Below are positions 3,488 through 44,848 of a stretch of 44,848 nucleotides of DNA, in pieces. Under the pieces are notes generated by a model, which was not told the origin of the DNA, did no database searches, and saw only the letters and a program-made list of their open reading frames with translations. A program made the translations under genes and the position numbers. Each line of letters begins with the position of its first letter. Position 1 is the stretch's first letter. The DNA lies in contig JAHYJL010000004.1 in assembly GCA_019429045.1 (NCBI GenBank), forward strand, positions 1 through 44,848, read 5' to 3'. The DNA is from Bacteroidales bacterium (GTDB lineage: Bacteria; Bacteroidota; Bacteroidia; Bacteroidales; JAGOPY01).

Positions 3488-4501
3488 ATGAGCAACTTTG
3501 TAAAAAGTATATTTCTATTGAGCTTGTTCCTGGCAGGGTTATGGTCCTGTCAGCCCAAAACCCGCCAACCCGAAACCCTGGAACCTGGAACTTTGGAACC
3601 TGGAACAACATTAGTGGTTCCCGCTTTCATCCCCGACTCGGCTTATGCCTTTGTTAAAGCACAATGTGATTTCGGTCCGCGGGTGCCTGGGACTCCATCC
3701 CATGCCGCCTGCGCCGAATACCTTGAAAACACGCTAAAAAGATACACCCCGCATGTCCAGGTGCAATCCTTCCGTAGCAGGGCATTCGATGGCATTGTAC
3801 TCAACGGCAAAAATATCATCGCCTCCTTCCAGCCGGACAAAAGGGCCCGCCTCATGCTATGCGCCCACTGGGATTCGCGGCCATTTGCCGATCACGATCC
3901 TGACCCGGCCAAACGCAACCAGCCGGTGATGGGCGCCAACGACGGCGCCAGCGGCGTCGGTGTGCTGCTCGAAGTGGCCCGCCTGCTGAGCACACATGAA
4001 CCCGGAATTAGCGTAGATATTATCTTTTTCGACCTGGAGGATTACGGTCCGCCGCACGACGACCAGACCGAAGGGAAAAACGAGCACTGGGGACTTGGCT
4101 CGCAGCACTGGTCGCGAAACCCGCATGAATACAACTACCGTCCGAGATATGTTATCTTGCTCGACATGGTCGGCGCAACCGACGCCCGGTTCCTGCTGGA
4201 AGGGTTTTCCATGCACTTTGCCCCCGACAAGGTGAAAAAGGTATGGGATATCGCCCACCGCATGGGATACCAGGAATATTTCCCAAATCAAAGGGGCGGA
4301 TTTATCAACGACGACCACTATTTCATCAACGAGATCGCCCGGATCCCCGCCATCAACATCATCCACCTCGATGCGAATTCATCCAACGGCAGCTTTTTCG
4401 AATACTGGCACACGACAGAAGATACCATGGATAAGATTGATAGCCGGACGCTTGGCGTAGTGGGAGATGTGGTTATCCAGACAATATTTATGGAGAAGTA
4501 A
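3488..4501 (+). CDS. M28 family zinc peptidase lipoprotein (glutaminyl cyclase-like)
   Basis: The ORF-track start at 3353 overlaps the previous gene; the ATG at 3488 begins directly at a lipoprotein signal (SIFLLSLFLAGLWSC), giving 337 aa. The fold signature of M28/QC-like enzymes is complete: FGPRVPGTPSH near the N-terminus, the zinc ligands in CAHWDSRPFAD and GANDGASGVGVLLE, the acidic FFDLEDYG, and the late HxF/NDDHYFIN histidine. Members hydrolyse N-terminal residues or cyclise N-terminal glutamine; the LEDYG and DDH features favour the cyclase-like subgroup but do not prove it. The lipidated cysteine places it in the outer or inner membrane. Between the lipobox and the domain lies a repeat-encoded linker (PETLEPGTLEPG). 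Confidence 0.88.
   Translation: MSNFVKSIFLLSLFLAGLWSCQPKTRQPETLEPGTLEPGTTLVVPAFIPDSAYAFVKAQCDFGPRVPGTPSHAACAEYLENTLKRYTPHVQVQSFRSRAFDGIVLNGKNIIASFQPDKRARLMLCAHWDSRPFADHDPDPAKRNQPVMGANDGASGVGVLLEVARLLSTHEPGISVDIIFFDLEDYGPPHDDQTEGKNEHWGLGSQHWSRNPHEYNYRPRYVILLDMVGATDARFLLEGFSMHFAPDKVKKVWDIAHRMGYQEYFPNQRGGFINDDHYFINEIARIPAINIIHLDANSSNGSFFEYWHTTEDTMDKIDSRTLGVVGDVVIQTIFMEK
3578..3606. repeat. TGGAACC-type short tandem repeat inside the M28 lipoprotein linker
   Basis: Runs of tggaacc/tggaact encode the LEPGTLEPG linker. The reverse complement (ggttcca) recurs at the 3' end of the symporter gene near 20.94 kb. Confidence 0.7.
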
Positions 4502-4650: not shown

Positions 4651-5991
4651 TTAAAGAAGTTCATTCGCCAGGTTCGCCAGTTCGCTCCGCTCTCCCTTTT
4701 CCAGCCTGACGTGCGCATAGATCGGGTGGTGCTTGATCTTGTCGATGAGGTAGGATAGCCCGTTGCTCTGTGAATCAAGGTAAGGGGTGTCGATCTGGTA
4801 AATATCCCCGGTAAAGATGATCTTGGTATTCTCGCCGGCGCGGGTGATGATGGTCTTCACTTCGTGCGGCGTGAGGTTCTGGGCTTCATCGACAATGAAA
4901 AAGACATTGGAGATGCTCCGTCCCCGGATATAGGCCAGCGGCGTGATCACCAGTTTTTCGGACGCCAGGGCCTCCGTTACTTTCTTAAACTCCTTATCGG
5001 CCTCGCTGTACTGGTTCTGGATGAACTTCAGGTTGTCGTAAAGAGGTTCCATGTAAGGGCTGAGCTTGTCCTTGATATCGCCTGGTAAATATCCGATGTC
5101 TTTATTGCTGAGAGGTACAATGGGACGCGCCAGGTATATCTGCTTGTAGTTCTTCTTCTGGTCGAGCGCGCCGGCCAGCGCCAGCAGCGTTTTACCCGTA
5201 CCGGCCACCCCCTGCAGCGTCACCAGTCTCACCCGCGGGTTCCGGATGGCATGCAGGGCAAAGACCTGCTCGGCATTGCGGGGGTTGATCTTGTAAGCCG
5301 GGCTCTTATCGATCCGCTCGATCTTGTCGATCACCGGATTGTAATAAGCCAAAGCCGATGAGGCGCCATTTTTCAGAATAAAATAATGGTTCGGGATGGG
5401 AGCTGCCAGCCCAATCTCCGCAGGATCTATGATCCCCTCGGTATATAGCTTGTCAATGGCTTCCCGGTCAATGCCTTCCATGGTCGATTTGCCGGTATAC
5501 AGCGATTCCAGGTCATGGATCTTGCCCGTTTCAAAGTCCTCCGCCTGGATATCGAGCGATTTGGCCTTGAGCCGGAGATTGATATCCTTCGTCACCAGGA
5601 TGACGGGACGCTCCGGATGGTCCTCCTGCATCACCATCGCCGCGTTCAGGATGCGGTGATCGGGCTTGTTGCCGTCAAAGATAGCCCGTGCATCGATCGG
5701 GCTGCTGTTCTCATTCATGATCACCTTGAAACAACCCGCCTCCTGACGATCGATATCGATCCAGTTCGTCAGCGAACTGTTCGCCGACAACCGGTCCATG
5801 ATCCGGATGAACTCCCTCGCCTCGAAATTCTTGGTGTCATTCCCTTTCTTGAAGTTATCCAGCTCCTCCAACACCGTAATGGGAATGGCGATATCATTAT
5901 CCTCGAAACTGTATATCGCGTTGTGATTATACAAGATTACCGAGGTGTCGAGTACGAATATCTTGGCTACTTTGCTTTTCTTACGACCCAT
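4651..5991 (-). CDS. PhoH family protein with N-terminal PIN domain (PhoH2/YlaK-type)
   Basis: The protein is 446 aa. Residues 10-145 form a PIN nuclease domain with its acidic residues (IFVLDTSVIL, ITVLEELDNFK, PDHRILNAA, VTKDINLR). Residues 240-446 form the PhoH ATPase domain with Walker A GVAGTGKT (261-268), LPGDIKDKLSPYMEPLYDN, the IRGRSI motif and Walker B FFIVDEAQNLT (about 365-373), then TGDIYQIDTPYLD. PIN-PhoH proteins are cytoplasmic ATP-dependent RNA helicase/RNases in the characterised mycobacterial cases. The length is typical and all motifs are intact. The start is 12 bases from a heptamer array, so that array lies in its leader. No partner gene is evident. Confidence 0.92.
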   Translation of the reverse strand: MGRKKSKVAKIFVLDTSVILYNHNAIYSFEDNDIAIPITVLEELDNFKKGNDTKNFEAREFIRIMDRLSANSSLTNWIDIDRQEAGCFKVIMNENSSPIDARAIFDGNKPDHRILNAAMVMQEDHPERPVILVTKDINLRLKAKSLDIQAEDFETGKIHDLESLYTGKSTMEGIDREAIDKLYTEGIIDPAEIGLAAPIPNHYFILKNGASSALAYYNPVIDKIERIDKSPAYKINPRNAEQVFALHAIRNPRVRLVTLQGVAGTGKTLLALAGALDQKKNYKQIYLARPIVPLSNKDIGYLPGDIKDKLSPYMEPLYDNLKFIQNQYSEADKEFKKVTEALASEKLVITPLAYIRGRSISNVFFIVDEAQNLTPHEVKTIITRAGENTKIIFTGDIYQIDTPYLDSQSNGLSYLIDKIKHHPIYAHVRLEKGERSELANLANELL

Positions 5992-6002
5992 TTAATCAAA
6001 TG

Positions 6003-6037
6003 TTGAATTTTGAATTTTGAATTTTGAATTTTGAATT
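6003..6037. repeat. Heptamer tandem repeat (TTGAATT)x5
   Basis: Five perfect 7-base units lie directly upstream of the phoH-type gene on the minus strand. It is followed 11 bases later by a second, different heptamer array. Confidence 0.9.
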
Positions 6038-6048
6038 CCAAAAACAAT

Positions 6049-6110
6049 AAACAAGAAACAAGAAACAAGAAACAAGAAACAAGAAACAAGAAACAAGAAA
6101 CAAGAAACAA
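6049..6110. repeat. Heptamer tandem repeat (AAACAAG)x8
   Basis: Eight perfect units plus a partial one. The reverse-complement unit (CTTGTTT) forms arrays at 23.77 and 28.10 kb. Confidence 0.92.
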
Positions 6111-6201
6111 AAACGATAAAAGTATAAAACATAAAAGACTTCCGCCGTCACTTCCGAAGTAAGATACTCACGGAATTATAAACATTTTTTCCGGCAAAAT
6201 C

Positions 6202-12246: not shown

Positions 12247-12343
12247 AATGTTGTATGTAGTATGTGGTATGTAGTATTTATTAAGTTCATAAGCTTCGAG
12301 AACCCTTATTAAATAATCAATATTACATACTACATACAACATT
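12247..12343. repeat. Large inverted repeat built from GTATGTAGTATGT words
   Basis: The 19-bp arms (12247-12265 and 12325-12343, aatgttgtatgtagtatgt and its complement) match perfectly. A second, imperfect inner pairing (tatttattaag/cttattaaata) extends the stem. The same word family reappears at 37.71-37.73 kb in the GH35-GH94 junction. It could act as a terminator or mRNA-stability element within the operon. Confidence 0.75.
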
Positions 12344-23597: not shown

Positions 23598-23720
23598 ATG
23601 CTTCACAAAGAAACAGTTGATGGAAACACACTGGAGTTAATCGAAAAACTCCAGTCAGATATGATGCTTCAGAATTTTGTTCTTGTTGGAGGGACTGCAT
23701 TGTCAGTTCATCGTCGATGA
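23598..23720 (+). pseudogene. Remnant of an AbiEii/AbiGii-type nucleotidyltransferase toxin gene (N-terminal 40 codons)
   Basis: The translated fragment MLHKETVDGNTLELIEKLQS...NFVLVGGTALSVH is the standard beginning of AbiEii-family nucleotidyltransferases, where GGTAL is the start of the NTase core. Family members are ~200-300 aa; here the frame stops after 40 codons, before the metal-binding S-x-D-x-D motif. The break coincides with the DNA of a truncated response-regulator gene on the other strand. No AbiEi antitoxin is seen next to it. It is too short for the ORF track. Confidence 0.65.
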
Positions 23721-23769
23721 TGAGGTTACGGAGCAATTTCGTTGGGATATTACTGCTAAAGATAGACAC
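23704..23769 (-). pseudogene. Remnant of a LytTR-type response regulator start
   Basis: Read on the minus strand it gives VSIFSSNIPTKLLRNLIIDDE, closely matching the first residues encoded at 28.07-28.10 kb (SIFNRNILTKMLRTIIIDDE). The receiver-domain acidic cluster is present but everything after it is missing, replaced by the AbiEii fragment. It shares its upstream DNA with the intact regulator. Confidence 0.7.
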
Positions 23770-23833
23770 TTTTTGTTTCTTGTTTCTTGTTTCTTGTTTC
23801 TGTAAATATTTAATGTCCACCTAATGTCGCGAG
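23758..23833. repeat. Duplicated regulator-leader DNA, copy B (with four TTTCTTG heptamers)
   Basis: 76 bases match 28088-28170 apart from one missing heptamer unit, including aaagatagacac, the heptamers, tgtaaatatttaatgtccac and ctaatgtcgcgag. The AATGTCGCGAGCGCAGCGAG words continue just to the right (23868-23902). Confidence 0.88.
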
Positions 23834-23957
23834 GCGCGCAGCGCCGAACGAATGTCTATCAATGTCGCGAGCGCAGCGAGTTAATGACGCGAGCGCAGCG
23901 AGTTTCATCCTTCAATTCGGTGATTTGCATCGAAGTCTTTTACCTGAGCTTTGAAAA

Positions 23958-27313: not shown

Positions 27314-28066
27314 TTATCCGCCGATGCGGTCAAACAACTCCAGCAAATCTTCCCGTTTTCTGGATGCCACCGGAATTTTAGCGCCCCCTTCCAGGATCAC
27401 ATAGCCCCCTTCGGCCTTCTCAAAGCGCTGTATGTATTCCAGGTTGATCAGGTAGGATTTATGCACCCTGAAAAATCCGGCATCATCCAGCATTTCGTGA
27501 TAATATTTAAGGGTTTCAGAAATGATCACTTTGTCGCCCGACAAAAGGTAAAACGTGGAGTACCGCCCGTCCGATCCAATGTACAGTATGTCTTTGAGTT
27601 TAACCAGGTGGATGTTGTCGAAGGTTTTCAGGATGATCTTTTTCTTTGCCTGTTCATCGGTTTGCAGGTTGTTCACCAGGGTATTCAGTTGTGTATTGAT
27701 TTCCTTTTGGGAGAGTTTGTCGGCCTTGTCAAAGGCGGCTTTCAGGTCGCCCGATTCAACCGGTTTGAGCAGATAGTCCAGCGCACTGAACTTAAAAGCC
27801 GTGATGGCATATTGATCGAAGGCGGTGATAAAAATAATCCTGAAATCAATGCTTTCGAGTTTTTCGAGCAGGTCGAAGCCGGTCCCGTCTTTCATTCTGA
27901 TATCGAGCAGCAGCAGGTCGGGCCGGTGGGTCCTGATGGCTTTCAGGCCGCTTTCTACCCCATCGGCCATGGCCACCACCTTCGCGTTGGGGCAATGGCT
28001 GCGGAGCATCTCAGCGAGCGATTCGCGGATGTGGTCCTCATCATCAATGATAATGGTGCGGAGCAT
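27314..28066 (-). CDS. LytTR-family response regulator
   Basis: The ATG at 28066 (MLRTIIIDDEDHIRESL) is preferred; the ORF-track GTG start at 28099 lies in a duplicated leader. This gives 250 aa. The receiver domain has D8/D9/E10, phospho-acceptor Asp55 in DLLLLDIRMKDGTGF, IIFITAFDQYAI and the FSALDYLLKPVE switch. A LytTR DNA-binding domain fills the last 100 residues (LKDILYIGSDGRYSTFYLLSGDKVIISETLK, FFRVHKSYLINLEYIQRFEK). The paired kinase gene follows after 11 bases. A truncated copy of this gene's 5' end lies 4.3 kb away at 23.7 kb. Confidence 0.93.
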   Translation of the reverse strand: MLRTIIIDDEDHIRESLAEMLRSHCPNAKVVAMADGVESGLKAIRTHRPDLLLLDIRMKDGTGFDLLEKLESIDFRIIFITAFDQYAITAFKFSALDYLLKPVESGDLKAAFDKADKLSQKEINTQLNTLVNNLQTDEQAKKKIILKTFDNIHLVKLKDILYIGSDGRYSTFYLLSGDKVIISETLKYYHEMLDDAGFFRVHKSYLINLEYIQRFEKAEGGYVILEGGAKIPVASRKREDLLELFDRIGG

Positions 28067-28087
28067 TTTTGTTAAGATATTTCTGTT

Positions 28088-28170
28088 AAAGATAGACACT
28101 TTTTGTTTCTTGTTTCTTGTTTCTTGTTTCTTGTTTCTGTAAATATTTAATGTCCACCTAATGTCGCGAG
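28088..28170. repeat. Duplicated regulator-leader DNA, copy A (with five TTTCTTG heptamers)
   Basis: 83 bases match 23758-23833, with one heptamer unit more. It lies in the leader of the intact regulator gene and is followed by AATGTC/GCGAGCGCAGCGAG words. Confidence 0.88.
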
Positions 28171-28296
28171 CGCAGCGAGCTAATGTCCACTTAATGTCTA
28201 CTTAAATCCCGAAGGGATGCTTGACAGTAGCCCGCCAATTCATTGGCCGGGAAAAAAGGCGGGTGGTGCAAAAACCCCGTGCCGAACGAATATCTT

Positions 28297-30552
28297 CTAA
28301 TCTCGCTTTATGACCTTTTTCGTCATCACTGTATTTGCCGTTTGTATCCTGATCATATAGATCCCCGCCGGCAGCCCGGATGCATTCCATTCCACCCTGT
28401 GCTTTCCCGCCGGGTATCGCTGGTTTGTAATCGTTCCTAGTCCGGCCCCCTGGAAATTACAGATTTCGATCCGGACCATGGTTTCCCTTTCCAGCTCGAA
28501 AACAACGGTGGTATTCATAGTGAAAGGATTCGGATAACTTTGAACCTTGAACTTTGAACTTTGAACTGCCCGCCCTGGCATTCCAACGCCAACCGATCCA
28601 AACTCATACGCCCCAATGTCCACGATCGTATCCCCGTCGCCATCGCCGTCCCAGAGTCGGTAATTGCCAAGCAGGTCCCACATGGGCAGGTTCAGGCCCG
28701 TTGTATCAGGCCTCCCTGCATCGATGCATGGCGAGCCGGCGGAGAGCTGGTAGGGATGCTCCCCTGTCCCTTCAAACATCGGATCCGTATCCATATTCCC
28801 CTGCTGCCAGTTTAACACAGCATTTTGGGAAAAGGAGAAAGCCGCTTCACCGTTCTGGATATTGCAGTGATCCACCGTCATCTCAACCGCCATCAACCTG
28901 ATCTCCTCCTGGGCATTTCCCCAGATGTTGCAATGGGTTAAATTCACGGGTTGCAGGTTGGTGGATGACTGGCCGGTGAAATATAACATTGATTCTCCAT
29001 TAATACATTGATTATCAGATATCGTCAAATGGGATGCAGTGATATTCGATCTTGATGAATTAATGGCACTGCCATGGTATTCAGAACTATTGCCGGCCAG
29101 GCACAGATTCATCAGGCCCAGGTTGGAATTCACTATCCTGATAGCCCCGCCATATCTTGCCTGGTTTCCGAAAAAGCTAATGTTTTGCAGCGTTCCGTGC
29201 GCATTGTTCGCATATATTCCGCCTCCGCTTCCACTTCCTGCAGAATTTCCAGCTATCACCGTTTCATTTGCCCGGCAGGTAAAGTCTCCGCTGAGATATA
29301 TTGCGCCACCATAGCTGGTCGTATTGTATAAAAAACTGACCCGGGATAAATCTAATGAATTCTTGCTGTTAAGATAGATAGTTCCGCCATATGAAGCCGT
29401 ATTACCCGAAAGTTCTGCATTTGTCATGTGGAGTTCCGCATTCTTTAACCAGGCAAAACCTCCATAGTACGCCCTGTTTCGGGTAATCAAGGCATCTTTG
29501 ATCCTGACGGTTGTTCCTATTGAATATATGGCTCCTCCCGAAATGGCAAAATTGGTATCCAGGTGAACCCCTTCCAGTTCAAGGTATCCCCCGGCAGGAC
29601 AATAAATAGCGCCCCCGCCGGTATTGCCTGCATTGCCTCCTGTCAGGGTCAGATGGCGGAAGTAATCAGCTACATTGTAATTCTTAATGAACAGCCGGGA
29701 TGTAAATTCCCCGTCAAGTATCGTTATCCCGGCCCCCTGGCCGATGATCTCCACCGTTGGTATCAATTCCACGGGGAATCTTTCCCCGGTAGTGGAGGGA
29801 GAATAGACCCCTTCCGCCAGCCGGATTGTATGCGGAGGGACTGTATCGAGGCTTGTCCGGAGGAGTGCGCTGGTGATGGTTCTAACAGGATCTTCGGGTG
29901 TCAAACCGCTGTTGTTGTCATTGCCCAGCGGGCTGACATAGATATCGATATCGCCTGCCTCCAGGCCGACATAGATCAGACCGGGTGTTGAAGATGACAC
30001 ATAAAGGTTATAGCCAGATCCTTCCCAATAGCCTAATGAATAGACCGGGCTGCAGATACCGGGCTGATCTCCGGTGGTTATGACCGGAGAGAAATAAATC
30101 GTCCCACTGCTTGTTTGCAGGTATTCCGGGTTTTCACTTATCCACCAGTAATAATTTGCACCCGGGGGATAAGTATGATTCATTTCCATTGACAGGTATT
30201 CCGAATAGGAGAATATCCCCGTATCGGCGCCGGTAAACGGGAAATTGTCTTCCACCGTCCAGCCCAGCGGCAGCCTGATGCCAAAGATCAGCCGGTAATC
30301 GGTGTTCATGGCATTGGCAATCTCATCCCAGCTATCTGGCAGTTGCAGCCCGATGTTTGAGACAATCCGGTCCGCTTCGGAAAGCTTTGCGTCACAGGCA
30401 ACGGTTATATCCACGGCAAAGGACGATTCAAGCTCCGCCTCCTCCGGCTGCTCAATCGATTCAAAATAAGGACCATAACAGGCTGACCAGGTCAGCACAA
30501 TCGCCCCGGTAGCCGCCCAGAGCATGTTTTTGAGTAAACCTGATGTTTTCAT
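28297..30552 (-). CDS. Exported beta-helix (choice-of-anchor-Q-like) protein with T9SS sorting domain
   Basis: The ATG at 30552 (MKTSGLLKN) is chosen because the extra 22 codons in the ORF track are read from dispersed repeats. This gives 751 aa. The signal (LLKNMLWAATGAIVLTWSAC) ends in a lipobox-like SAC. Residues ~190-640 form a right-handed beta-helix of the Bacteroidota type: IYVSPLGNDNNSGLTPEDPVRTI, then rungs such as GGAIYCPAGGYLELEGVHL and GGGIYANNAHGTLQNISFFGNQ, closing SPCIDAGRPDTTG...VDIGAYEFG. The end is a T9SS sorting domain (SYPNPFTMNTTVVFELE...PAGIYMIRIQTANTVMTKKVIKRD). The linker before it (SSKFKVQS) is encoded by a heptamer array. It is likely a surface adhesin or glycan-interacting protein. 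Having both lipobox-like and T9SS signals is odd. Confidence 0.87.
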   Translation of the reverse strand: MKTSGLLKNMLWAATGAIVLTWSACYGPYFESIEQPEEAELESSFAVDITVACDAKLSEADRIVSNIGLQLPDSWDEIANAMNTDYRLIFGIRLPLGWTVEDNFPFTGADTGIFSYSEYLSMEMNHTYPPGANYYWWISENPEYLQTSSGTIYFSPVITTGDQPGICSPVYSLGYWEGSGYNLYVSSSTPGLIYVGLEAGDIDIYVSPLGNDNNSGLTPEDPVRTITSALLRTSLDTVPPHTIRLAEGVYSPSTTGERFPVELIPTVEIIGQGAGITILDGEFTSRLFIKNYNVADYFRHLTLTGGNAGNTGGGAIYCPAGGYLELEGVHLDTNFAISGGAIYSIGTTVRIKDALITRNRAYYGGFAWLKNAELHMTNAELSGNTASYGGTIYLNSKNSLDLSRVSFLYNTTSYGGAIYLSGDFTCRANETVIAGNSAGSGSGGGIYANNAHGTLQNISFFGNQARYGGAIRIVNSNLGLMNLCLAGNSSEYHGSAINSSRSNITASHLTISDNQCINGESMLYFTGQSSTNLQPVNLTHCNIWGNAQEEIRLMAVEMTVDHCNIQNGEAAFSFSQNAVLNWQQGNMDTDPMFEGTGEHPYQLSAGSPCIDAGRPDTTGLNLPMWDLLGNYRLWDGDGDGDTIVDIGAYEFGSVGVGMPGRAVQSSKFKVQSYPNPFTMNTTVVFELERETMVRIEICNFQGAGLGTITNQRYPAGKHRVEWNASGLPAGIYMIRIQTANTVMTKKVIKRD
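28537..28567. repeat. TTGAACT heptamer array inside coding sequence
   Basis: Three to four units of (c)ttgaact encode the SSKFKVQS linker between the beta-helix and the T9SS domain. It is a coding version of the heptamer arrays that elsewhere are intergenic. Confidence 0.85.
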
Positions 30553-30784
30553 GTGGTTTGGTATTTTAATGTCAATTAATGTCAACTTAATGTCGCGAGC
30601 GAAGCGAGCGAATGACAACCTAAAGGTACACCCCCCGGCAGGCAGGAATGAACCAAATGCATAAACGCCGGATTTGGCGTAACGAACGTTGGGATTTAGG
30701 GGATGAACGCTGCTCAGCGGTTCCTGGTTCTTGGTTCTTGGTTCTTGAACTCGAAACTCGAAACTAAATTGGCATAATACCGCA
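30553..30784. other. Repeat-filled intergenic interval between divergent genes
   Basis: No gene is seen. From left to right it holds aatgtc words with a gcgagcgaagcgag palindrome (30570-30612), a small hairpin (ACGCC..GGCGT, about 30663-30680), and a ggttctt/gaaactc heptamer array (about 30719-30765). The promoter and operator of the ATPase gene follow. Confidence 0.7.
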
Positions 30785-31987: not shown

Positions 31988-32103
31988 ATTTCAGGCAGCA
32001 ACCAGCAGCCTTCCCCTTCGGGATTAAAACCTTCTCCGAAACCATACCAGGCAATAAATATTTCACACCTCCGGCGTGGGCCAAATGACCAATTAATGTC
32101 CAC

Positions 32104-34023
32104 CTAATGTCCACACTTCACCAGCTTTCGCGTCGAAACTTTGCCTTCAGTCTCTGTTAAGATAATCAGGTAAATCCCGGCCGGCAGAGGGCCGGCGCTG
32201 CAGGAAATTTCATGGGTTCCAGCCGGCAGTTGTTTATTGAACAGCACAGCCAGCCTTTGTCCCATGGTATTAAAAACCTCCGCCACGGCCATACCCGGTG
32301 TATTCATGCAAAACTTCAGGGTTAACTGCTCGTTGAACGGATTGGGAAAGAAAGAAAAACCTTCTGCCTGAACAGCACTTTCAACACCCACTGTTTCACA
32401 GGCTGCCAATACCTCAGCAGGGCTGTTACACCCGGGAGCGTTACCATAAATACTAACCGTCCCGTTAGGTGCGGCCAGGTATTCGCAGATACTTTGCACC
32501 TCGCAGGTGGTTAATGATACATTATATTTTATATCAAGATGTGTAATAGAATTGGCATCAATGCTATCGAGCCCTTCCAGGCTGGTCAGCATGGCGTTGG
32601 AATTTATATTAAGTTCATCCCCGATACAAGTCAAACCTTCCAGTCCCGTAATGCCTATCAGGTTGGTGTTACCCACAATTTTAAGGTAATGACCGATGGA
32701 AGTCAGATTGTTCAGTCCTGTCAGGCTGGTCAGGGAATAATTATTATCGATACAAAGGAATCCCCCGATAGAAGTCAGATTTTCCAGCCCCGTCATGCTT
32801 GACATGGCAGCGTTTCGATTGATATGAAAATAGCCCCCTATGGAAGTCAGGCCTTCCAACCCAATCATACTGTTAAGAGCATGGTTGTATCGTATCAGGA
32901 GGTTTCCCCCAATGAAAGTCAGGTTGTTCAGTCCTGCCAGGTTGGCCAGGGAATTGTGAGATTGTATTTCAAGGTAATTTTCAATGGAGGTCAGATTATT
33001 CAGTCCCGTCAGGCTGGTCAGGGCACTATTATTTGATATATAGAGATAATCCCCGATATAAGTCAGATTGTTCAGTCCCGTCAAGCTGGTCAGGGCAGGG
33101 TTAGAAAGTATCTCAATGTACTCCTCCTGAGAAGTCAGATTATTCAGCCCCATCAGGCTGGTCAGGGCATAGTTCGATTTTATCGAGAGGTAACTTCCGA
33201 TGGAATCCAGATTATCCAGCCCCACAAGATTTATCAGGCCAATGTTCGATTCTATCGAGAGGTAACCCCCGATGGAAATCAGATTATCTAACCCCGAAAG
33301 GTTGGTCAGTGAAAGATTTCCGGAATTATAATCATTACCCCCAATTTGAAGGTTACCCCCAATAGCAGTCAAATTGTTTAAACCCGTCAGGCTGTTTAAG
33401 GCATTGTTGTGATCTAATAAAAGAAAACCCCCGATATAAGTCACATTATCCAGCCCCGCCAGGCTGGTAAGGGCATTGTTATTATCTATTCGAAGATAAT
33501 TCACGATCGAAGTCAAGCCTTCCAGCCCCGTCAGGTTGGTCAATGCATTGTTATAATGTATCCGAAGATAACCTCCGGCTGAGGTCAGATTATTGAGCCC
33601 TGTCAGGCTGATAAGGGAAGAGTTGCCTACTATCCGGATATCACTCCCGACAGAAGTCAGATTCTCCAGTCCTGTCAGGTTGATCAGAACCGGGTTACCT
33701 TGATTGTTGTATTCACCAATTAAAAGTGAACCCCCGATGGATGTCAAATTACCTAAACCAAACAGGTTGGTCAGTAAAGTACCACGATATATCCAAAGGT
33801 ATCCCCCGATGGATGTCAGGACGCTCAAACCATTGAGATTGCTTATGAAGGAACCCTTTATGGTGACATTCCCCTCAATTATTGTACACCCGGGATAGTT
33901 GGCCTGGAAATTATCAATCTGTGACTGGGTTGTAAAGGTGATTCCCTGGGGAAGGCATGACTGGCCGGTTGCTTTAGAACAGCTTATGATCATTATCGCA
34001 GCTAAAAAAACTATTTTTTTCAT
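32104..34023 (-). CDS. Receptor-L/LRR-like repeat surface protein with T9SS sorting domain
   Basis: The ATG at 34023 begins directly at a signal peptide (MKKIVFLAAIMIISCSKATGQ), giving 639 aa. After a short cap (CLPQGITFTTQSQIDNF...PGCTIIEGNVTI), about 17 near-identical ~24-residue units of the form LTSLTGLNNLTSIGGYLxIxxN follow, resembling receptor L-domain/BspA-like solenoids. A Cys-containing segment (CEVQSICEYLAAPNGTVSIYGNAPGC) and a T9SS type A domain close it (FSFFPNPFNEQLTLKF...PAGIYLIILTETEGKVSTRKLVKCGH). It should be a cell-surface solenoid for binding proteins or glycans. The unit similarity at DNA level suggests copy-number change by recombination. Confidence 0.9.
   Translation of the reverse strand: MKKIVFLAAIMIISCSKATGQSCLPQGITFTTQSQIDNFQANYPGCTIIEGNVTIKGSFISNLNGLSVLTSIGGYLWIYRGTLLTNLFGLGNLTSIGGSLLIGEYNNQGNPVLINLTGLENLTSVGSDIRIVGNSSLISLTGLNNLTSAGGYLRIHYNNALTNLTGLEGLTSIVNYLRIDNNNALTSLAGLDNVTYIGGFLLLDHNNALNSLTGLNNLTAIGGNLQIGGNDYNSGNLSLTNLSGLDNLISIGGYLSIESNIGLINLVGLDNLDSIGSYLSIKSNYALTSLMGLNNLTSQEEYIEILSNPALTSLTGLNNLTYIGDYLYISNNSALTSLTGLNNLTSIENYLEIQSHNSLANLAGLNNLTFIGGNLLIRYNHALNSMIGLEGLTSIGGYFHINRNAAMSSMTGLENLTSIGGFLCIDNNYSLTSLTGLNNLTSIGHYLKIVGNTNLIGITGLEGLTCIGDELNINSNAMLTSLEGLDSIDANSITHLDIKYNVSLTTCEVQSICEYLAAPNGTVSIYGNAPGCNSPAEVLAACETVGVESAVQAEGFSFFPNPFNEQLTLKFCMNTPGMAVAEVFNTMGQRLAVLFNKQLPAGTHEISCSAGPLPAGIYLIILTETEGKVSTRKLVKCGH
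32560..33840. repeat. ~72-base tandem repeats inside the LRR-like gene
   Basis: The words gaagtcagattgttcag, cccgtcaggctggtcag and ggcattgttat recur roughly every 72 bases, coding for the 24-residue units. Boundaries are approximate. Confidence 0.8.
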
Positions 34024-41560: not shown

Positions 41561-41869
41561 CTTAGCTTTGCTGCTTTCGCTCAGGAAAAATTTTCATTAA
41601 CGGTCTCCTTTCCAGATCCGGGTGTTATCAGTAAATTTGACCCTGGAAGAAAAGATCGGCCAGTTGAACCTGCTGCCTGGGTACGAAGATATCGTCACAG
41701 GTGAGGCGACCGCGTCGGAGATTGGGAGGAAAATCCAGGGCAGAAATACACTACGCCAGGGGAAGCAATATTGTGGATGACCCGGAAATGGACCGGCACC
41801 CAGGGTGGCAAAGCCATTGCGGACGTTATCTTCGGCGATGTAAATCCATCCGGCATTGCAGGGAGGTGA
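41561..41869 (+). pseudogene. Remnant of a GH3 beta-glucosidase (both ends kept, middle lost)
   Basis: Three pieces in order but in different frames are recognisable. First is a signal-peptide end (LSFAAFAQEK, 41561-41590). Next is the GH3 N-terminal stretch NLTLEEKIGQLNLLPGYEDIVTGEATASEIGRKI (in the open stretch 41601-41780). Last is the GH3 C-terminal-domain motif GTQGGKAIADVIFGDVNPSG (in 41777-41869), which in intact enzymes lies ~550-600 residues downstream. An intact gene would be ~750 codons. A GH3 that splits sophorose or short oligoglucans is the usual partner of GH144, so its loss matters for this pathway. Degraded sequence may continue to about 41935. Confidence 0.7.
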
Positions 41870-41982
41870 AATCTGTTGTAATCTACCTGCCGTCCTGATG
41901 TACTTCTCACGCGGGATCACCTGGGGAAACCGTTTGAATGAATAATCGTATTTTTACAAAAGATTTAGCACACCTTTTATCC

Positions 41983-42034
41983 AACACTAAACACCAAACA
42001 CTAAACACTAAACACCAAACACTAAACACTAAAC
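41983..42034. repeat. Heptamer array (AAACACT/AAACACC) directly before polA
   Basis: About seven units alternate t and c in the last position and end 4 bases before the polA ATG, leaving no room for a Shine-Dalgarno site. Confidence 0.9.
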
Positions 42035-42038
42035 AAAA

Positions 42039-44774
42039 ATGGCCAACCGCCTCTTCCTCCTCGACGCCATGGCCCTCATCTACCGGGCCTATTTCGCGCT
42101 GAATAAAAATCCCCGGATCACCTCTACCGGTCTGAATACATCGGCCATTCTGGGCTTTGCCAATACCCTTTACGATATCCTGAAAAACGAAAAACCCACC
42201 CACATCGGGATCGCTTTCGACTCCTTCGCCCCTACCCTGCGGGAGGCGGAATATGTTGAATACAAAGCCCAGCGGGAAAAGATGCCGGAAGATATAGCAC
42301 TGGCCCTCCCATACATCCGGCGGCTGATCGAAGGATTTAAAATACCGATCCTCGAGCTGGAAGGCTATGAGGCGGACGACATCATCGGCACCCTGGCCCG
42401 GAAAGCGGAAGAGAAAGGATTCACGACATATATGGTCACCCCGGATAAGGACTTCGGCCAGCTTGTCACCGGTAAAATATTGATCTACAAGCCGCCACGA
42501 TTCGGGAACAAGGCGGAGATCCTCGGTGTGAAGGAGATTTGTGAAAAATATAACATTGACCGCCCTGAACAACTCATCGACATCCTCGGGCTTTGGGGCG
42601 ATGCATCGGATAATATCCCCGGGATACCCGGTGTGGGAGAGAAATGGGCCAAAGACCTCATCAAAGAGTTCGGCAGCATCGAGAACCTGCTGCAAAACAC
42701 CGGTAAGCTCAAGGGAAAAATGAAGGAGAATGTGGAGGAATATGCCGAGCAGGGCCTCTTCTCCAAAAAACTCGCCACCATCATGATCGACGCCCCGCTG
42801 GAATTCGAAGAAGATAAGCTGGTCATTGAAAACCCAGACGGCACCGCGCTTAAAGAACTATTCGACGAACTGGAGTTCCGCACCTTTGCCAAAAGGATTT
42901 TTACAGATCTTTCGATAATGGAAAAGGTTGAATCTGAAGGACATGGCAAAAAAGGGTTTCCAACCCTGGGGTTGGAAACCCTGAATAAATACCACCTTGT
43001 CACAACTTCAGAACAACGCAATCAACTGATTGAGAGATTGCAAAAAGAACAAACTTTCTGCTTCGACACCGAAACCACAGGCATTGATCCGAACAACTCG
43101 GAACTGGTCGGCATATCCTTCTGCTTTCAGCCCGGCGAAGCCTTCTTCGTATACCTTCCGGAAAACTACCAGGAATGCCTGGAGATCGTCAGGGAGTTCA
43201 AGCCTTTCCTGGAAGATGAAAACATCCCCAAGACCGGCCAGAACCTGAAATACGACATCGCCATCCTGAAGTGGTACGAGGTGGAAGTCAAGGGGAAGCT
43301 GTTCGACACAATGCTGGCCCATTACCTGATTGAGCCCGATATGCGGCACAATATGGACTACCTGGCAGAAACCTATCTCAATTACAAAACTATCCACATC
43401 GCCGAGCTCATCGGCAAGAAAGGGAAAAACCAACTCAGCATGCGCTCTGTGACCCCGGAGCGATTGGCGGAATATGCCTGCGAGGATGCTGATATCACCC
43501 TGCAGTTGCAGATAGTCTTTGACCCGATGCTCGATGAGGGAGGATTGCGCAAGATATTTGAAGAGATCGAGATCCCGCTGGTGCCCGTGCTGGCATCGAT
43601 GGAGGCCGAAGGGGTCAAGCTCGACACGGCAGCCTTGCGGGAGTATTCGGTACAATTGGGGAAAGAGGTTATCGAAGTCGAAAAAGAGATCTACCAGCTG
43701 GCGGGCGAGGAGTTCAACATCGCCTCCACCAAGCAGTTGGGAGAGATACTCTACAAAAAGCTGCGGGTGACCGATAAACCGCCCCGCACCCCTACCAAGC
43801 TCTATTCCACCAGCGAGGAAGTGCTGGTCAAAATGCTTTACCGCCACCCGATCATCCAGCTCATCCTGGATTACCGCTCGCTGACCAAGCTGATATCGAC
43901 CTATGTCGACACGCTTCCGGAACTGGTCAGCCCGCGCGACAAGCGGATCCATACTTCTTACAACCAGGCGGTCGCCGCCACCGGCAGGCTCAGCTCCAAC
44001 AATCCCAACCTGCAGAATATCCCCATTCGCACCGAAAGGGGGCGTGAGATCAGGAAAGCCTTTGTCCCGCGCAGCAAAGATTATGTCCTTTTATCGGCCG
44101 ACTACTCCCAGATAGAGTTGCGGATCATCGCAGCCCTCAGCGAAGACGAAAACATGCTCGAAGCTTTCCGCAACCGGATCGACATCCACGCCGCCACCGC
44201 CAGCAGGGTATACGGGCTTTCCCTGGAAGAGATCACCGCTGAGATGCGCCGGAGGGCCAAAACCGTTAATTTCGGCATCATATACGGAATATCAGCGTTC
44301 GGACTGTCAGAACGCCTCAACATCCCCCGCCGTGAAGCCGCCGATATCATCGAGGCCTATTTCGCGCAATACCCCGGCATCAAGGCTTACATGGATAAAA
44401 CCATCGTCTTTGCCCGCGAGAACGGTTATGTAGAGACCATCCTCGGTCGCCGCCGTTACCTGCGCGATATCACCTCCGCCAACGCCACCGTCCGTGGCTT
44501 CGCCGAGCGCAACGCCATCAACGCCCCCATCCAGGGTTCTTCGGCCGACATGATCAAAATCGCCATGATCCGGATCTACGACGCATTCACCGGCAAAGGC
44601 CTGCGCAGCAAAATGATCCTCCAGGTGCACGACGAACTCGTCTTTGATGTGTACAAACCAGAGATCGAAACGGTAAAGCCCATTATCCACGACCTGATGG
44701 TGAATGCCATCCCGCTGAAGGTTCCTGTCGAAGTGGAAATGAATACGGGGGAGAACTGGCTGCAAGCGCATTAG
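42039..44774 (+). CDS. polA: DNA polymerase I
   Basis: The protein is 911 aa with all three domains. The 5' nuclease occupies residues ~1-290 (LFLLDAMALIYRAYFAL, ELEGYEADDIIGTLA, TPDKDFGQLV, DNIPGIPGVGEKWA). The 3'-5' exonuclease starts at the intact DxE motif (FCFDTETTG, Asp343/Glu345) with TGQNLKYDIAIL. The polymerase has motif A LLSADYSQIELRIIAALS (Asp688), motif B RRRAKTVNFGIIYG (Lys741) and motif C LQVHDELVF (Asp865). It functions in repair and Okazaki-fragment processing. Residues ~305-315 (KKGFPTLGLETLN), in the linker between the nuclease domains, are encoded by a palindromic repeat. The start follows a heptamer array; the stop runs into another array. Confidence 0.97.
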   Translation: MANRLFLLDAMALIYRAYFALNKNPRITSTGLNTSAILGFANTLYDILKNEKPTHIGIAFDSFAPTLREAEYVEYKAQREKMPEDIALALPYIRRLIEGFKIPILELEGYEADDIIGTLARKAEEKGFTTYMVTPDKDFGQLVTGKILIYKPPRFGNKAEILGVKEICEKYNIDRPEQLIDILGLWGDASDNIPGIPGVGEKWAKDLIKEFGSIENLLQNTGKLKGKMKENVEEYAEQGLFSKKLATIMIDAPLEFEEDKLVIENPDGTALKELFDELEFRTFAKRIFTDLSIMEKVESEGHGKKGFPTLGLETLNKYHLVTTSEQRNQLIERLQKEQTFCFDTETTGIDPNNSELVGISFCFQPGEAFFVYLPENYQECLEIVREFKPFLEDENIPKTGQNLKYDIAILKWYEVEVKGKLFDTMLAHYLIEPDMRHNMDYLAETYLNYKTIHIAELIGKKGKNQLSMRSVTPERLAEYACEDADITLQLQIVFDPMLDEGGLRKIFEEIEIPLVPVLASMEAEGVKLDTAALREYSVQLGKEVIEVEKEIYQLAGEEFNIASTKQLGEILYKKLRVTDKPPRTPTKLYSTSEEVLVKMLYRHPIIQLILDYRSLTKLISTYVDTLPELVSPRDKRIHTSYNQAVAATGRLSSNNPNLQNIPIRTERGREIRKAFVPRSKDYVLLSADYSQIELRIIAALSEDENMLEAFRNRIDIHAATASRVYGLSLEEITAEMRRRAKTVNFGIIYGISAFGLSERLNIPRREAADIIEAYFAQYPGIKAYMDKTIVFARENGYVETILGRRRYLRDITSANATVRGFAERNAINAPIQGSSADMIKIAMIRIYDAFTGKGLRSKMILQVHDELVFDVYKPEIETVKPIIHDLMVNAIPLKVPVEVEMNTGENWLQAH
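42954..42981. repeat. Palindromic repeat GGGTTTCCAACCC-tg-GGGTTGGAAACCC inside polA
   Basis: The arms are identical to the intergenic copy at 14361-14388, also preceded by aaaaaa. It is read in frame as part of the linker after the 5' nuclease domain. Confidence 0.88.
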
Positions 44775-44848
44775 GGGCATGGGGGCATGGGGGCATGGAG
44801 GCATGGAGGCATGGAGGCATGGGGGCATGGGGGCATGGAGGCATGGGG
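44774..44848. repeat. Octamer array (GGGGCATG/GAGGCATG) after polA, continuing past the window
   Basis: About nine units of gggggcatgg/ggaggcatgg type begin at the last base of the polA stop codon and reach the window edge. Confidence 0.9.

Follow-up and report, generated by a model that had tools for sequence, protein, structure and literature searches.

An A/C-rich heptamer array directly before polA of a Bacteroidales bacterium is probably a tolerated leader from a genome-wide population of 7- and 8-bp repeats

The window analysed in this study is a 44,848-nucleotide stretch (G000:C151:1-44848) of a Bacteroidales draft genome (2.89 Mb, 239 contigs), and its genes and repeat arrays are listed in Table 1. 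The polA leader array contains no G residue and can also be read as a perfect 21-bp superunit (AACACTA-AACACCA-AACACTA) present in 2.5 copies. Only AAA lies between this array and the ATG at 42039, which is backed by a conserved N-terminus in a congener (MANRLFLLD/MNNRLFLLD). An in-frame TAA occurs within the array nine bases 5' of the ATG; therefore, a longer reading in which the array is translated into PolA is excluded. The first-pass annotation had placed heptamer arrays 4, 12, and 36 bases before polA, the PIN-PhoH gene, and the regulator gene, respectively. The arrays do lie directly 5' of the first two starts, but at 3 and 7 bases, and the distance of 36 bases given for the LytTR regulator was correct. 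The arrays at 3567-3606, 23773-23801, and 28536-28567 and the octamer array after the polA stop codon had not been listed.

Table 1. Genes and repeat arrays in the window and, in the last row, arrays within polA at other Bacteroidota loci.
Feature	Position or locus	Strand	Remarks
Degenerate heptamer array AACCCGA/AACCTGG	3567..3606	+	Before M28 peptidase gene (predicted start 3614)
PIN-PhoH ATPase gene	4651..5991	-	Pfam PIN_4 and PhoH
Heptamer array, AATTCAA on coding strand	5999..6037	-	5.6 units; before PIN-PhoH ATG
Heptamer array AAACAAG	6042..6114	+	10.6 units; PIN-PhoH/SusC-like divergent region; adjoins the 5999..6037 array
Inverted heptamer array pair, ATGTAGT ... ATACTAC	12248..12342		Between two genes
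Heptamer array GAAACAA	23773..23801	-	4.1 copies; second LytTR-leader copy with truncated LytTR start (relic); downstream of genes
LytTR response regulator gene	27314..28066	-	
Heptamer array, GAAACAA on coding strand	28103..28138	-	5.1 units; upstream of LytTR regulator ATG
Heptamer array AACTTTG	28536..28567		Within an ORF, linker just before Por_Secre_tail domain
Two adjoining heptamer arrays, GGTTCTT and AACTCGA	30719..30765		Divergent intergenic region
Heptamer array AACACTA/AACACCA	41983..42035	+	7.6 units, 91% match; A/C-rich strand in polA message
polA, DNA polymerase I	42039..44774	+	Both exonuclease domains and polymerase domain (Pfam)
Octamer array GGGGCATG	44774..44848	+	9.4 units; begins at last base of polA stop codon; contig ends inside
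Period-7/8 arrays in polA hinge	L172, L179, L183, L169, L170, L177, L189, L121		

Several other features were observed in and around these arrays. Arrays of unlike units often abut, as in AATTTTG and AAACAAG (5999-6114), GGTTCTT and AACTCGA (30719-30765), and at other loci, with the period kept constant while the unit changes. Contig ends fell within arrays in 7 of 177 cases, compared with 1.9 expected (p=0.0035), as if array length or heterogeneity breaks the assembly. A remnant of a GH3 glycosidase with broken frames lies at 41600-41880, between a GH94-like gene and polA; a second piece of it matches Glyco_hydro_3_C at E=4e-7, just below the Pfam cut-off. In addition, 11-bp units (TAATGTCCACC/T) attached to palindromic pieces of the GCGAGCGCAGCGAGC type are scattered widely through the genome and occur in the window at 28181-28205, 30566-30612, and 32094-32114, and an ORF contains 72-bp tandem repeats (32693-33573) that form two blocks of about 11 copies in all, with a period of 24 residues.

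The source genome (G000) was sampled over 1.33 Mb (46%), and genes were called by our own simple phase-specific Markov method, on which the starts rest (953 genes, 84% coding). The nearest relative compared was the congener (G001, same genus; 0.80 Mb sampled). The relatives obtained through a polA search were Bacteroidales and other Bacteroidota, and the sample of other Bacteroidota comprised about 1.5 Mb around polA (1.54 Mb in the period count). Exact arrays, defined by at least 14 matched bases, numbered 118 for period 7, 52 for period 8, and 13 for period 11 in the source genome, and a single array was found for periods 2 to 6 in total. A control of equal length generated by an order-3 Markov model yielded no array of any period. 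The spectrum of the congener was alike (52, 29, and 5 for periods 7, 8, and 11), and the other Bacteroidota gave 33, 21, and 2, respectively. The arrays are thus real and far beyond chance, and those of period 7 are mainly intergenic in the source genome (103 of 118). The heptamer units were strongly reused: the 153 arrays of the source genome comprised 53 types, compared with 141 expected for random heptamers, and the two congeners had just 8 types in common. This combination suggests that units spread or are homogenised within each genome.

The positions of arrays relative to genes were compared in 45-bp stretches before starts and after stops with a sensitive period-7/8 detector, for which shuffled flanks gave 0 to 2 matches against 24 to 113 in the real flanks. 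In the source genome, 113 of 526 flanks after stops (21%) carried an array, compared with 44 of 662 before starts (6.6%; p=7e-14). The corresponding values in the congener were 47 of 315 (15%) and 24 of 379 (6.3%; p=2e-4). The first-pass annotation, which took the arrays to act as 5' leaders, had named an equal frequency at gene ends as evidence against that role; arrays were not merely as common there but two- to threefold commoner in both species. The number of arrays per intergenic region was highest in convergent and lowest in divergent regions. A test against uniform placement showed a strong excess near stops and a modest one beside starts (29 compared with 20.8 +/- 2.6).

Within 20 bp of a start, 34 arrays were found in the 1.33 Mb. 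They precede polA, PIN-PhoH, a class II lysyl-type tRNA synthetase, a CoA ligase, LpxD, and a polyprenyl synthetase, among others, and Pfam matches for the ten genes tested showed ordinary conserved genes. The view that arrays abut genuine starts of real genes is supported. Breaks in synteny did not account for the arrays significantly in the source genome (19 of 71 broken compared with 6 of 42 conserved adjacencies, p=0.16) or in the congener (p=0.08). As a separate observation, four-helix genes of the 23S_rRNA_IVP-like type were near an array in 6 of 10 cases, compared with about 20% of genes, a small number in which the seed case was chosen. One such gene occupies a 723-bp intergenic region of the congener (C1:156369-157092; L245:16369-17092), against 151 bp in our own genome, and is flanked by inverted octamer arrays (GATTGTTC ... 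ACAATAGA); its product presumably resembles 23S rRNA intervening-sequence proteins. A like gene at L099 lies between inverted heptamer runs.

It had been proposed that a change in unit number alters leader length and perhaps translation, such that slippage would tune housekeeping genes. The leader arrays would then be contingency loci like those of the phase-variable adhesin genes hmw1A/hmw2A of Haemophilus influenzae, in which the leader heptamers lie between two mapped promoters, within the 5' untranslated portion of a single transcript, and expression falls as units are added (PMC8262952). Because a heptamer leader has this effect in hmwA, the number of units could in principle have an influence here too. 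The likeness extends to a heptamer array in a presumed leader; phase variation, mapped promoters, and unit-dependent expression are properties of the Haemophilus genes. The adjacency of arrays to the starts of real genes agrees with tuning, and the excess of contig ends within arrays is compatible with heterogeneity in length. Compatible both with tuning and with the explanation favoured below are the duplicated LytTR leaders of the window: the relic at 23710-23866, which adjoins a truncated reading frame (23600-23720), is about 82% identical to 28040-28200, and the two differ in unit number (4.1 and 5.1). A third copy (G000:C188:4013-4200), about 28 bp longer, would fit four more units.

Against tuning, besides the predominance of arrays behind genes, stands the predicted folding of the polA leader. 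When the unit number was varied from 2 to 16, the mean unpaired probability between -20 and +20 changed only from 0.78 to 0.82, which predicts that accessibility of the start is independent of unit number. Furthermore, the TAnnTTTG promoter element, which peaks 20 to 29 bases before starts in the source organism, was found within 60 bp upstream of only 3 of the 34 start-adjacent arrays, compared with 26% of array-free genes, which gives little indication of an hmwA-like pairing of promoter and array. No two-box promoter match was found in the 400 bp before polA or the 230 bp before LytTR. The congener polA has no array, carrying a clean TATCTTTG element near its start instead, and 94 of 99 Bacteroidota polA genes lack an array in the 200 bp upstream. 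Tuning by unit number was therefore left unsupported by the gene-end excess, the unchanged predicted accessibility, and the congener polA, and we regard it as unlikely.

The orientation of the arrays followed a strand rule in both genomes. Within 10 bp before a start, the A/C-rich strand was in the message in 24 of 28 cases in the source genome and 11 of 12 in the congener (together 35 of 40, p=1e-6). When all arrays in the flanks were considered, A/C-rich sense was found in 35 of 44 before starts compared with 34 of 113 after stops in the source genome (p=3e-8), and in 20 of 24 compared with 14 of 45 in the congener (p=4e-5). Counting each unit once gave 24 of 30 before starts and 23 of 64 after stops in the former, and 17 of 20 and 8 of 33 in the latter. 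Reading-frame geometry could mimic such a rule because G/T-rich units more often carry start and stop codons; among 120 units, start codons occurred on the G/T strand of 67 and on the A/C strand of 9. When only units whose two strands are balanced for start and stop codons were counted, the start-side bias was 11 of 14 and 10 of 10, together 21 of 24. The base composition of array-free leaders was rejected as the source of the orientation, since the A/C fraction of their last 20 bases is barely raised (0.53-0.56). The consistent presence of the A/C-rich strand in the message indicates that the leader position has consequences. Initiation in Flavobacterium is marked by A at -3, -6, -12, and -13, low structure, and fewer extra AUGs (PMC6847099). 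A at -3 and -6 was not specially enriched beside the start-adjacent arrays (0.34 and 0.41, compared with 0.37 and 0.36 for all genes), so the filter appears to be general A/C richness and not a Kozak-like fit.

The stop-side bias came mainly from arrays that touch or overlap the stop codon, and in many cases the array itself provides the stop; among arrays running into a coding region, 30 of 41 had a stop codon in the sense strand. This bears on the idea that the strand rule is mutational, and not selective, with break- or polymerase-linked extension writing the G/T-rich strand outward from genes. The G/T-rich strand does point outward at both gene ends with the significance given above for each genome, unlike units do adjoin, and species differ in the unit present at a given site. 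However, a mutational rule should persist with distance, whereas four or more bases behind the stop the orientation bias was gone (13 of 28 A/C-rich). A symmetrical mechanism with the G/T strand outward is weakened by this dependence on stop-codon overlap, and directional growth seems to us very unlikely.

Among 99 distinct Bacteroidota polA loci, an array was found within 200 bp upstream in 5, downstream in 9, and inside the gene in 8, and none of the 5 upstream arrays lay within 20 bp of the start. All of the internal arrays (nt 878-1046) fall in the hinge that joins the 5'-nuclease to the 3'-5' exonuclease region, where the repeat forms a protein linker. The congener orthologue of PIN-PhoH (89% identity) is also preceded by a heptamer array, degenerate and A-rich, before its ATG, and same-side arrays of unlike units were found at orthologues of PIN-PhoH and the lysyl-type tRNA synthetase and at several 3' ends. 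At 67 conserved gene pairs of the two congeners, strict detection gave 1 shared array and 6 plus 3 unshared ones; the sensitive detector gave 4 shared sites upstream and 10 downstream. When intergenic regions were matched by type and length, upstream co-occurrence at orthologues was not significant (4 compared with 2.65 expected, P=0.19), and downstream co-occurrence was only nominally significant (P=0.02). A binder acting on start-adjacent arrays would fit their place directly before starts, their consistent strand, and the same geometry in the TAACTGA study (PMC4679880), but a single sequence-specific binder is unsuited to 53 heptamer types, to units that differ from one congener to the other at a given gene, and to arrays that mostly lie behind genes, and we consider such a role highly improbable. 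A protein that binds A/C-rich single-stranded RNA in general may still act there.

It is probable that the leader arrays are part of one genome-wide population of short repeats, tolerated as leaders, with a near-neutral number of units. Amplification with a step of 7 or 8 bp, as the period spectrum indicates, would make the arrays, by replication slippage or by copying from array to array, and would reuse a small, species-specific set of units. The products would be tolerated in free sequence, that is, behind or into the 3' ends of genes, in convergent regions, and in linkers of proteins, the polA hinge among them. Beside starts, selection through translation initiation would filter them. Bacteroidota do not use Shine-Dalgarno pairing for initiation, which takes place on unstructured, A-rich leaders with few extra start codons, and a surviving start-side array would be a compatible leader, A/C-rich and free of decoys. 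Because the G/T-rich strand carries decoy ATG, GTG, and TTG codons, survival would be almost limited to A/C-rich sense. The number of units is expected to be near-neutral for translation, since in a periodic leader the gain or loss of a unit does not alter the sequence adjoining the start. We infer the amplification process, the translational selection, and this near-neutrality from the distribution of the arrays. Several points count against the explanation, among them the mild excess beside starts, which pure tolerance does not require, the effect of unit number in hmwA, and the step of 7 or 8, rather than 5, 6, 9, or 10, which it leaves unexplained. We regard the array before polA as most probably one of the many dispersed repeats, tolerated here as an A/C-rich leader.

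Heptamers at start codons and a start-side strand rule already have precedents (PMC4679880, PMC4692102). TAACTGA direct repeats occur in marine Beggiatoaceae, Cyanobacteria, and some Bacteroidetes, and long mixed heptamer assemblages have been reported from intergenic regions of Bacteroidetes (MacGregor 2015, PMC4679880). Like TAACTGA, the present arrays include heptamers, many of which end a few bases from a start in fixed orientation, housekeeping genes included (PMC4679880). Whereas a single unit predominates among the TAACTGA repeats, with most sets placed upstream of starts, the present arrays comprise many units as well as octamers and mostly follow stops, and no tandem pair of TAACTGA was found in 1.33 Mb of the source genome or 0.8 Mb of the congener. 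The G-rich GGGNATC heptamers of Xanthomonas and Nostoc form dispersed arrays whose length varies between relatives (Rehm 2015, PMC4692102). They too lie between aligned genes and are rare in coding and divergent regions; in the 50 bp before genes their G-rich strand is antisense, whereas up to 50 bp from stops it is in sense, overlap included (PMC4692102). The same strand rule was found here, C/A-rich sense before starts and G/T-rich at stops, with the stop side being mostly stop-codon overlap. A link to G-quadruplexes, in contrast, belongs to GGGNATC; units bearing GGG or CCC made up only 79 of the 529 runs here, with no run of GGGAATC and one of GGGGATT. Since the start-side preference is the same with units mostly lacking G tracts, quadruplexes are unnecessary for it. 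Cyanobacterial heptamers and a general excess of heptamers among long bacterial SSRs are attributed to Mrazek 2007 in PMC4692102. The present arrays show that trait, with period 7 standing out among intergenic tandem repeats, far above chance and mostly non-coding. As far as those SSRs are described there, the present case differs in that arrays of period 8 reach almost half the number of those of period 7 and that unit libraries were measured for each genome.

Long period-7 repeats of bacteria have been noted since 2007 without an accepted cause. The source genome and its relatives show a 7/8 spectrum of great sharpness, libraries of units that differ between the congeners, and a strand filter at starts that does not need quadruplexes. 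The mutational question of why the steps are 7 and 8 is separated from the selective one of which strand enters a leader, and both become testable; the simple idea of a copy-number switch in the leaders of housekeeping genes is weakened. A more far-reaching possibility, which we hold to be doubtful, is that Bacteroidota possess an unrecognised 7/8-bp amplification that copies units of a small species-specific library between sites, exchanges the unit at a given gene border over time with the period kept, and is disciplined by translation at starts. If this were true, A/C-rich leaders would form a rapidly evolving, interchangeable layer in the genomes of the phylum.
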